A DNA stretch of 64,000 bases, taken from Duganella dendranthematis. GTDB lineage: Bacteria; Pseudomonadota; Gammaproteobacteria; Burkholderiales; Burkholderiaceae_D. Every line of letters begins with the position of its first letter. The stretch's first letter is position 1. Below the pieces are notes generated by a model. That model saw only the letters and a list, made by a program, of their open reading frames with translations, was not told where the DNA came from and searched no databases. The DNA lies in assembly GCF_012849375.1 (NCBI RefSeq), contig NZ_CP051684.1:2852001-2916000 (forward strand). The letters run 5' to 3'. Of the stretch, positions 28,866 through 42,445 are shown in pieces. Made by a program: the position numbers and the translations under genes.

Positions 28866-28911
28866 TCGTCTTGAAGCCGGCGGCGCTGCCTAGCGCCACT
28901 GCCAGCTGATG

Positions 28912-28951
28912 ATGGGGCCGGACGTGCAAACGTCCGGCCCCATTGTTTTTT
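28912..28951 (+). terminator. Intrinsic terminator after rpsJ
   Basis: ATGGGGCCGGACGT (28912-28925) and ACGTCCGGCCCCAT (28930-28943) form a perfect 14-bp stem with a GCAA loop, followed by TGTTTTTT. This is one of the strongest terminators in the window and should stop the str transcript. Confidence 0.93.
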
Positions 28952-28979
28952 ACGGCTGAAACCGCTAGAGTCTGACGCC

Positions 28980-29822
28980 ATGCTGGCCATCCTCGACACC
29001 CATCTGCTGACTGCCACCACCCGCCACGGCCTGCGCGGCTGGCAGCGCTTTCTGCTGGAATTCCTCTACTTCGGCATCAAGAACGCCCGCGCCTGTCTGT
29101 TCGTGGCGCTGTTCTTCGCCAGCGTGCTGCTGGTGCCGCGCGCCGGGCTGTTCGGCCTGCCGCGCTACGACGTGCTGCTGCTGGCCGCCATCGCCATCCA
29201 GGTCTGGATGTTGTGGGCCCGGCTGGAAACCTGGGATGAACTGAAGGCGGTGTGCCTGTTCCACCTGGTCGGATTTGCGCTGGAAGCGTTCAAGGTCTCG
29301 GGCAGCATCCAGTCGTGGAGCTATCCGGACTTTGCCTACACCAAGCTGTTTGGCGTGCCGCTGTTTTCCGGGTTTATGTACGCGGCGGTGGGCAGCTATG
29401 TGATCCAGGCCTGGCGCCTGTTCGACCTGCGCATCCGCCACCATCCGCCGTACTGGATGGCGGTGACGATCGCGCTGCTGATCTATGCCAATTTCTTCAC
29501 CCATCACTACATCGGCGATTTCCGCTGGTATCTGGCGGCCTGCGCGCTGGGCCTTTACGCCCGCACCACGGTGGTGTTCAAGCCGCTCGACCGTAACCGG
29601 CAAATGCCGTTGCTGCTGTCCTTCGTGCTGATCGGCTTTTTCATCTGGCTGGCGGAAAACATCAGCACGTTCTGGGGCGTGTGGCGCTATCCCAACCAGC
29701 TGGGGGCGTGGTCGGCGGTGCACGTCAGCAAATGGAGTTCGTGGTCGCTGCTGGTGGTGATGACCTTCACCATCGTCGCCCACCTCAAGCACATCAAGGC
29801 CCGCATCCACGTGCCGGAATAA
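28980..29822 (+). CDS. DUF817 family integral membrane protein
   Basis: A 280-residue protein with about eight hydrophobic helices. It has the conserved pattern of DUF817: FLYFGIKNARACLF near the start, RLETWDELKAVCLFHLVG, GVPLFSGFMYAAVGSYV, RHHPPYWM, NFFTHHYIGDFR and FFIWLAENISTFWGVWRYP. Conserved His, Asp and Glu in the membrane suggest metal or cofactor binding, but no function is established. The start lies 28 bases after the rpsJ terminator, and no clear promoter is seen. A siderophore-interacting protein gene follows 32 bases downstream on the same strand. Confidence 0.82.
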   Translation: MLAILDTHLLTATTRHGLRGWQRFLLEFLYFGIKNARACLFVALFFASVLLVPRAGLFGLPRYDVLLLAAIAIQVWMLWARLETWDELKAVCLFHLVGFALEAFKVSGSIQSWSYPDFAYTKLFGVPLFSGFMYAAVGSYVIQAWRLFDLRIRHHPPYWMAVTIALLIYANFFTHHYIGDFRWYLAACALGLYARTTVVFKPLDRNRQMPLLLSFVLIGFFIWLAENISTFWGVWRYPNQLGAWSAVHVSKWSSWSLLVVMTFTIVAHLKHIKARIHVPE

Positions 29823-29854
29823 AATATCCGCGCGCTTGTCCCGTCTGCACAGGC

Positions 29855-30568
29855 ATGGACAACACATTCCCCACCAGGCGCGCCGGCCTGTTTGAATCGG
29901 CAGTGCAAAAACTCTTCACCCGCCCCGCGCGGGTGGTGGAGATCGAGAACATCGGACCGTATCGCCTGCTCACGCTGGGCGGCGATGCCTTGCGCAACGC
30001 GTCATGGACTGCCGGCGACAAGATCCAGATTCAGTTGGGCGGCTGGGTGCAGCGCACCTATACGCCGCTGGACTGGGATGCCGACAACGGCCGCCTGCGC
30101 ATCCTGATTTTCCTGCATGCGGATGGTCCCGGCACGCAATGGGCGCGCGCGCTGCGCCAGGGCGACAGTTGCGTGGTATTCGGCCCGCGCAAATCGGTCC
30201 GCCTGGCCGAGCCGCAACCGTCGCTGATTTTCTTTGGCGATGAAACCTCGGTCGGCCTGGCGGCGGCGCTGACGCCAGCACAGATACTGTTGGAGATGAA
30301 CGCACCGGCGGACAACGCCGGGGTGCTGGCCATGCTGGGCTTGCAGCATGCGCAGCTGTGTGCGCGTCACCGCGACGACGCGCACATCGCCGGGCTGGGA
30401 AACCAGCTGCTGGCGATGCTGCAGGCGCAACCGGAAGCCGAGATCGTGTTGACCGGCAAAGCCAGCACCATCCAGCATCTGACGCGCTTGCTGCGGCGCC
30501 AGCCGGGGCCGGCCGCACCGCGGCACAGCAAAGCTTATTGGGCCACCGGCAAAAGCGGCATGGACTGA
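29855..30568 (+). CDS. Siderophore-interacting protein (FAD-binding ferric reductase family)
   Basis: A 237-residue flavoprotein. The FAD-binding barrel carries the RTYTPLDWD motif (near 69-77) and the NAD(P)-side domain carries LIFFGDETSVGLAAAL. The C-terminal SKAYWATGKSGMD matches the usual end of the SIP family (K/R-A-Y-W-x-x-G). Members reduce ferric siderophores in the cytoplasm to release iron. The family normally has about 240-280 residues, so this is slightly short. The ATG at 29855 follows the DUF817 gene by 32 bases. No Fur box was recognised upstream, so iron control is not shown. Confidence 0.82.
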   Translation: MDNTFPTRRAGLFESAVQKLFTRPARVVEIENIGPYRLLTLGGDALRNASWTAGDKIQIQLGGWVQRTYTPLDWDADNGRLRILIFLHADGPGTQWARALRQGDSCVVFGPRKSVRLAEPQPSLIFFGDETSVGLAAALTPAQILLEMNAPADNAGVLAMLGLQHAQLCARHRDDAHIAGLGNQLLAMLQAQPEAEIVLTGKASTIQHLTRLLRRQPGPAAPRHSKAYWATGKSGMD

Positions 30569-42104: not shown

Positions 42105-42119
42105 TCTGTCTGCACCGTG

Positions 42120-42158
42120 AAGCCGCCGCCGCGCCTGCCGTTGCGGCGGCTTTTTTTT
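42120..42158 (+). terminator. Intrinsic terminator after the 896-residue TBDR gene
   Basis: AAGCCGCCGC (42120-42129) pairs with GCGGCGGCTT (42143-42152), followed by an unbroken T run to 42158. It isolates the receptor gene from the ribosomal genes that follow. Confidence 0.9.
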
Positions 42159-42319
42159 GCGCGTATGCGCCGGCCGGCGGTACGCAAGCGCAAGCCAATG
42201 GACGGCCATTTCTACCCTTCAAATCGGCCGCCAGCCCGCACCAAGGCTGGCTTTCGACGTGTCCGGCCGACTTGCCGCCGAAATGCTGCGGAAAAACTGA
42301 CATACCTCGTACTAAGTTG

Positions 42320-42348
42320 TTGCGTCAAGCCCCAAATCACGCTACACT
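42320..42348 (+). promoter_or_regulatory. Promoter of the rplC-led S10 operon
   Basis: TTGCGT (42320-42325) and TACACT (42343-42348) with a 17-base spacer, giving a leader of about 90 bases before rplC. The 341-base gap 42105-42445 holds the receptor terminator, about 160 bases in which nothing was recognised, and this promoter. A dedicated promoter is needed because rpsJ and its promoter are 13.6 kb away. Confidence 0.65.
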
Positions 42349-42445
42349 AGCCGGCTTCGGTATGGATTCGACTTTTTATTGGTCCGTACTAATTTTAGTA
42401 GTTCAACATATCCCCGCCCAATCGTAGGTGGGAATTGGAGAAAAA

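Follow-up and report, generated by a model that had tools for sequence, protein, structure and literature searches.

How does a gene neighbourhood as highly conserved among bacteria as that of rpsJ and rplC come to be broken, and what becomes of the control of its two parts? The question is raised by a stretch of 64,000 nucleotides from Duganella dendranthematis, of the order Burkholderiales (contig NZ_CP051684.1, positions 2,852,001 to 2,916,000; hereafter the window), in which the stop codon of rpsJ and the ATG of rplC lie 13,580 bp apart. The original prediction for this DNA had described a gap of 13.6 kb holding eight accessory genes' worth of DNA, including three TonB-dependent receptors; the gap and the three receptors were confirmed, and the unrelated genes number seven, not eight. 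We consider it likely that two transcription units were already in place on either side of this seam, that the rplC unit begins with a leader resembling the L4-controlled leader of the Escherichia coli S10 operon, and that a single insertion at the base of one clade separated them.

Evidence for a seam older than the break comes from relatives in which both genes are contiguous. Their rpsJ–rplC intergenic region contains −35 and −10 elements at fixed spacing, the sequence GGCTT just after them, and the same leader that is found in the window; since promoter and leader are also present in the contiguous relatives, both predate the break. A promoter matching at least 8 of the 12 consensus positions just before GGCT or GACT was detected in 24 of 26 contiguous genomes (shuffle expectation 0.5) and in 27 of 65 split ones (0.9). 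All 33 split rows displayed have a spacer of 17 nt and a distance of 4 nt from the −10 element to GGCT, and a few contiguous genomes have a 16-nt spacer. The rplC promoter of the window is present as originally described, and the box that lies upstream of it could possibly be a regulator site.

The leader that follows this promoter contains two hairpins, H1 and H2. H2 is the last hairpin before the Shine-Dalgarno sequence of rplC and consists of a six-pair stem and an eight-base loop (42419-42426 in the window). In 71 aligned leaders, 426 of 426 stem cells are standard pairs, and four of the six pairs have changed on both sides, beyond all 500 shuffles. An order-wide set of 34 distinct H2 hairpins showed 99.5% of cells paired and a covariation score of 0.81 versus 0.31 in shuffles, none of the 500 reaching it. 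Conservation is much stronger in the loop than in the stem; the loop consensus is CAAU(C/U)GNA, and the loop occurs as CAATCGTA, CAATCGCA, CAATCGAA, CAATTGNA and CCATTGCA. According to a motif rule, H2 precedes rplC in every family genome scored (65 split, 26 contiguous) and in 20 of 23 genomes at order level, making 111 of 114 for the order, and it does so in 60 of 61 named loci, some of which belong to these same genomes. The four without it are L039 (loop CAACCGTA), L189 (loop kept, mismatch in the stem), L187 and L193. When the genome of the window was searched with a covariance model of H2, the rplC leader was the best match (34.8 bits, versus 20.7 for the next; 150 of 2,236 candidates scored). 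H2 is a ribosomal leader of the general kind, a covarying structure before a ribosomal protein gene. No family of Rfam 15 reached its gathering score in the window, and none matched around the rplC leader up to an E-value of 10.

A hairpin with the same loop is present in the leader of the S10 operon of E. coli K-12, upstream of rpsJ (CCCAU-CAAUCGUA-AUGGG). Its eight loop bases are identical to those of H2 in the window, and the fold places it at the tip of a long hairpin, which precedes the U tract and which we take to be the one known as HE. When the E. coli leader was shuffled with its dinucleotides kept, only 33 of 100,000 sequences contained such a loop closed by at least five pairs. Both leaders belong to the operon encoding L3, L4, L23 and L2, and the promoters are also alike, the E. 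coli one having a TTGCGT-like −35 element and GGGCTT after the −10. The position of the hairpin is different: E. coli has it upstream of rpsJ, the order of the window upstream of rplC, where H2 directly precedes the Shine-Dalgarno sequence, and the window leader has neither the attenuator U tract nor a clear hairpin D. According to the part of an eLife article that we covered (PMC10578931), stem D is required for L4 regulation in E. coli and stem E is the attenuator hairpin. In the E. coli leader, the preceding hairpin (L233, 1161-1178, minus strand) was also observed to carry CAAUCG around its loop (CUCCCAAUCGGGGAG). Because its loop is the same as that of a hairpin in the L4-controlled S10 leader of E. 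coli, H2 is likely an L4-responsive element, relocated or ancestral, that would limit translation from rplC onward; judged from sequence, the chances that L4 itself is the ligand seem about even.

We evaluated the presence of H2 outside the order in 80 gammaproteobacterial genomes, one per family code: 60 were every second one of 125 listed, and the other 20 were the unsampled genomes closest to E. coli in rplC, one of them (G294) already known as a match from the class-wide search described below. None of the sampled genomes exceeds 76% identity to E. coli rplC, so the true enterics are missing from this sample. With a rule allowing variation at one further loop base, H2 was found before rplC in 12 of the 80 genomes (10 of the 60, with a shuffle expectation of 0.02, and 2 of the 20); ten of the twelve have the strict loop, and one of the twelve lies 77 nt from rplC. 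Before rpsJ, H2 was found in 0 of the 79 genomes with an rpsJ match, at least 200 nt of upstream sequence being covered in 52 of these. A class-wide search with the covariance model matched 23 of 140 genomes, about 14 being expected by chance; besides the window, 11 matches lie 31-46 nt before rplC (one of them in the order of the window) and 11 elsewhere. In a phylum-wide search, 29 of 150 genomes matched at E-values up to 0.1, with about 15 expected by chance, and only two of the 27 new loci encode rplC, both from the order of the window.

The rpsJ side of the seam has features of a separate unit as well. The perfect 14-bp intrinsic terminator that had been described after rpsJ is indeed there, and terminator-like structures follow rpsJ in 44 of 65 split genomes (7.7 in shuffles) and in 7 of 26 contiguous ones (1.1). 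Upstream, a hairpin is followed by a boxA-like element: of 156 loci, 154 have CG[CT]TCTT[TAC] near the start of rpsJ, mostly 13-22 nt upstream of it, where 1.6 are expected from shuffles, and at order level it was seen by eye in 5 of 19 further stretches. The rRNA spacer in the genome of the window contains ATCGTTCTTTAACA. S10 is NusE, which binds boxA together with NusB. In the passages covered of Baniulyte et al. 2017 (PMC5725501), boxA is reported before rpsJ in three gammaproteobacterial genera, with the consensus GYTCTTTAANA, and autoregulation by NusE is proposed. As in the boxA autoregulation of the Nus factor genes suhB and rpsJ treated there, the core lies a few bases before the Shine-Dalgarno sequence of a Nus-factor gene; unlike it, the element here departs from the consensus after seven bases, and in the family of the window the core is nearly universal. 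Since the window sequence keeps only those seven bases and the full consensus is rare, we call the element boxA only tentatively. Between tuf and rpsJ, a strong hairpin and a promoter-like sequence were also observed (28438-28476); −10-like motifs similar to it recur in split genomes, and rpsJ may have its own promoter. Rfam searches around the rpsJ leader gave seven weak matches of unrelated kinds (E-values 1.2-6.0). The rpsJ motif of Peptostreptococcaceae (PMC11109978) is likewise a structured leader before rpsJ; it was found in a Firmicutes family.

To place the break among the relatives, rpsJ and rplC were searched in 60 relatives and 195 genomes of the family (23 of the 195 without an rpsJ match, 18 without an rplC match); the counts cover the pairs among the matches listed. 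Five genera yielded 76 same-contig pairs, of which 74 are split, the distance between match ends being 2,314 to 42,009 bp (median 8,799); five more pairs in these genera, located on different contigs, were dropped. The two contiguous species in them, G005 and G032, have 244 and 243 bp between match ends. All 80 pairs from 21 further genera of the family are contiguous (124-373 bp), as are 22 of 23 at order level (28-213 bp); the exception, G043, is split by 15.3 kb, independently of the family, and retains H2. The expectation that the genes are adjacent in most relatives was therefore correct. Among 80 contig records with named loci, genera split with both genes in view were Duganella, Rugamonas, Massilia, Pseudoduganella and Janthinobacterium, and contiguous ones were Herbaspirillum, Collimonas, Undibacterium, Noviherbaspirillum, Oxalicibacterium, Pandoraea and Burkholderia; a metagenome-assembled genome named Duganella (L024) is contiguous, and in several loci named Massilia or Duganella no rpsJ was seen in the stretch fetched. 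Since the patterns of split and contiguous genera agree, the five coded genera are probably these named ones, members of the Telluria group together with Janthinobacterium. A second rpsJ copy, 98% identical to the query, was seen about 2.8 kb from the first in L157 (G225), whose interval is 41.9 kb; G206, G239 and G127 likewise gave two matches.

The origin of the split was then examined on two trees. In a tree of the S10 region from rplC onward (95 genomes, one row having only 1,448 nt), all split genomes of the family fall into one clade (local support 0.99) with the contiguous G078 as its sister (1.00), and G005 and G032 are nested inside it, their group being supported at 0.93. These two species, which are counted among the 26 contiguous genomes scored for the promoter, have intergenic regions of 256 and 255 bp that still contain the rpsJ terminator and the rplC promoter and leader. 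In a gyrB tree of 30 genomes, which leaves several forks open, the 21 split species as one clade were rejected (approximately unbiased test, p 0.0205), and G005 and G032 are placed among them. We infer that one gain at the base of the clade and one loss in G005/G032 is the simplest account. The alternative, that the seam was filled several times independently, is encouraged by cargo modules that differ between genera and by the independent split of G043. Against it, the S10-region tree unites the five genera in a single clade and the gyrB tree needs a minimum of two changes, so repeated filling appears unlikely. An assembly or binning error has practically no weight as a source of the gap: rpsJ is frequently near a contig end, but 13 split genomes, including that of the window, are each given as one contig in the genome tables from which this status was taken (contig numbers of the other genomes are rounded there). 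The comparison agrees with the suggestion that the event is old and fixed in its lineage, and within the family it is shared by one clade rather than found in all relatives; since the whole clade has it, the arrangement is ancestral for that clade in the terms of the original prediction.

As to control, the original prediction held that the break took rplC out of L4 control exerted through the rpsJ leader and moved rpsJ wholly to the str transcript. The position of rpsJ, about 130 bp after tuf and ending in a terminator, is in line with this. However, whether a relative is split or contiguous, its rplC is immediately preceded by a promoter and an L4-leader-like hairpin. The leader of rpsJ is of a different kind, with its own hairpin and boxA-like element, and in split genomes the stretch from tuf to rpsJ also holds promoter-like sequence. 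The claim of lost L4 control is not supported, a complete transfer of rpsJ to the str transcript is doubtful, and we regard the reading as a whole as highly improbable.

More difficult to set aside is the explanation that H2 is a general structure of translation start or mRNA stability, or that it binds L3, L23 or L2, its likeness to E. coli being convergent. Only the hairpin tip is common to both leaders, and several results count against two units with an L4-like leader. The covariance model, built without E. coli, matched the E. coli leader weakly (17.3 bits, E-value 0.024 in 80.75 kb). In the window no U tract follows H2, the next bases being AATTGGAGAAAAAATG; H1 does not resemble hairpin D, in folds compared by eye; and the whole leader has a fold no more stable than that of shuffled sequences (z −0.71; 42 of 200 shuffles equal or exceed it). 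Two-sided change in all six pairs, as seen in the order-wide set, also arose in 45 of 500 shuffles, and 68 of the 80 gammaproteobacterial genomes outside the order lack H2. A copy of H2 was also sought in 23S rRNA and not found. The window promoter matches 7 of 12 positions of the sigma-70 consensus because its hexamers are TTGCGT and TACACT; the frequencies given above mean that the rpsJ terminator is not universal; and the boxA-like sequence of the window, GCTCTTTTGAG, agrees with the consensus in its first seven bases only, the full consensus occurring in 2 of 156 rpsJ loci; of 57 other gammaproteobacterial genomes, two have the core. On the other side, the eight loop bases are identical, the loop is conserved far beyond the stem, the leader lies upstream of the same operon, and shuffles rarely produce such a hairpin. 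Convergence is accordingly a serious possibility, to which we give somewhat less than an even chance. A further possibility, which we advance tentatively, is that the L4-responsive S10 leader is older than has been assumed and has its normal place before rplC, where betaproteobacteria and scattered gammaproteobacterial lineages would have retained it. The E. coli arrangement would then be derived, rpsJ having come under this leader there, rpsJ in the family of the window would be under NusE-boxA control, and the seam would be an ancestral boundary of units that one clade converted into a gene pocket.

The DNA between the two units differs from species to species. Of 75 split intervals, 66 were short enough to be fetched whole (65 from the family and G043), and their open reading frames (ORFs), called by a simple GC-frame rule, amounted to 437 in 161 clusters, 107 of which are single proteins. 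The commonest cluster, DUF817, is present in 26 intervals. A module of ROK regulator, TonB-dependent receptor, Cupin_8 and SapC was found in genus g1; response regulator, histidine kinase and CreD, a creBCD-like module, in g1, g30 and g36 (the regulator also in g28); ter genes (TerD, ATPgrasp_Ter, C-C_Bond_Lyase, PRTase_2) in g43, g28 and g36; and GT20 with MscS in g43 and g36. Cargo is unlike even between closely related species, and it turns over quickly. PEP-CTERM motifs were noticed in 15 of 67 representative cargo proteins. As had been reported, no integrase or transposase was seen in the window insert, whose ends share no repeat of at least 18 nt, and no mobile-element machinery appeared among the families displayed; nor was a tRNA site seen in the insert. 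For 67 further cluster representatives, neither integrase nor transposase was among the best 25 of 89 Pfam families, and a PHROGs scan of cargo gave nothing clear, and neither of these, among the best 25 of 41; clusters under 150 amino acids were mostly outside these scans. Variable gene pockets with fixed flanks and changing cargo are familiar in bacterial genomes. The rpsJ–rplC seam is alike in both respects and differs in that its flanks are the str and S10 ribosomal clusters and that neither integrase nor tRNA is seen at its ends. The features of the locus are collected in the table.

Table. Positions in the window of the genes and regulatory features at the rpsJ–rplC seam.
Feature	Position	Strand	Basis or remark
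rpsJ-leader hairpin CTGGC...GCCAG	28505..28525	+	sequence; hairpin and conserved 3' box by eye in relatives
boxA-like element CGCTCTTT just before the rpsJ Shine-Dalgarno sequence	28528..28535	+	motif count
rpsJ (S10 / NusE)	28548..28865	+	NF001861, TIGR01049
Intrinsic terminator 3' of rpsJ	28912..28951	+	14-bp perfect stem 28912-28943, then TGTTTTTT to 28951
DUF817 protein (cargo)	28980..29822	+	PF05675
Flavin adenine dinucleotide-binding siderophore-interacting protein (cargo)	29681..30568	+	PF08021; ORF start probably too early
ROK-family regulator (cargo)	30582..31793	-	PF00480
TonB-dependent receptor (cargo)	32030..35020	+	TIGR01782
Cupin_8 protein (cargo)	35096..36085	+	PF13621
TonB-dependent receptor (cargo)	36327..39116	+	PF00593, PF07715
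TonB-dependent receptor (cargo)	39414..42104	+	PF00593, PF07715
Terminator-like hairpin 3' of last cargo gene	42125..42150	+	scan: 15 such sites overall versus 19.3 in shuffles
Box GACATACC upstream of rplC promoter	42299..42306	+	by eye in many split and contiguous relatives
rplC promoter: TTGCGT 42320-42325, 17 nt, TACACT 42343-42348	42320..42348	+	sequence
Leader hairpin H1	42359..42390	+	sequence variable in relatives
Leader hairpin H2, CCCGCC-CAATCGTA-GGTGGG, L4-leader-like	42413..42432	+	covariation; model R1 34.8 bits
rplC (L3)	42446..43102	+	TIGR03625; ATG start 42446
rplD (L4)	43106..43726	+	PF00573

Two observations concern the surrounding ribosomal clusters. In the window rpsL is preceded not by rpoC but by an EptA-like sulfatase on the minus strand (21802-23978), so the rpoBC-str neighbourhood is open here as well. 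ARAGORN called a tRNA-Arg (gcg) at 51882-51965, likely spurious, within a long ORF of the ribosomal cluster (51519-52853) that is presumably secY to judge by the usual gene order.

In the full texts searched (subscription papers lay outside this scope), the matches listed included no paper on an rpsJ–rplC break or an rplC leader in this group. A 2024 review (PMC10931766) states, in the passage covered, that the L4 site is not widely conserved and is late, citing Allen et al. 1999. Eckert and Weinberg 2020 (PMC7247131) present candidate leaders that are, like H2, covarying structures before ribosomal protein genes; they include an L4 candidate in Archaeoglobi, and no betaproteobacterial rplC leader is among the rows covered of Table 1. 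The parts covered of PMC2965389, PMC7186457 and PMC11109978 have nothing on an rplC leader of this group, and we found no description of H2 in Rfam 15 or in these passages.

Taken together, these results favour the idea that rpsJ and rplC were separate transcription units, presumably with separate transcripts, before the insertion; throughout the family, the two halves of the E. coli-style S10 operon seem to be controlled locally and separately. The rpsJ unit has its own leader, perhaps bound by NusB with S10/NusE in a NusE autoregulation, and ends in an intrinsic terminator in many genomes; the rplC unit has its own promoter and a leader ending in H2. DNA would then have entered the seam in the ancestor of the Telluria group and Janthinobacterium, and, as each unit was already locally controlled, it would have parted no gene from its control; with promoter and H2 directly before rplC, any L4 control of rplC would survive the break. 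The pocket would since have gained and lost receptors and sugar uptake, creBCD-like genes, ter genes and osmotic functions, and would have been emptied again in the small lineage of G005 and G032. That the insert removes nothing from either half would explain how this neighbourhood opened and stayed open, and it offers a concrete reason for the breakage, the seam being a place with local control on both sides before any DNA came in. Nearly all sampled Burkholderiales, and 12 of 80 gammaproteobacterial genomes outside the order, have a hairpin with this loop ahead of rplC; the proposal is thereby directly testable, and the L4 site may have been sought before the wrong gene.

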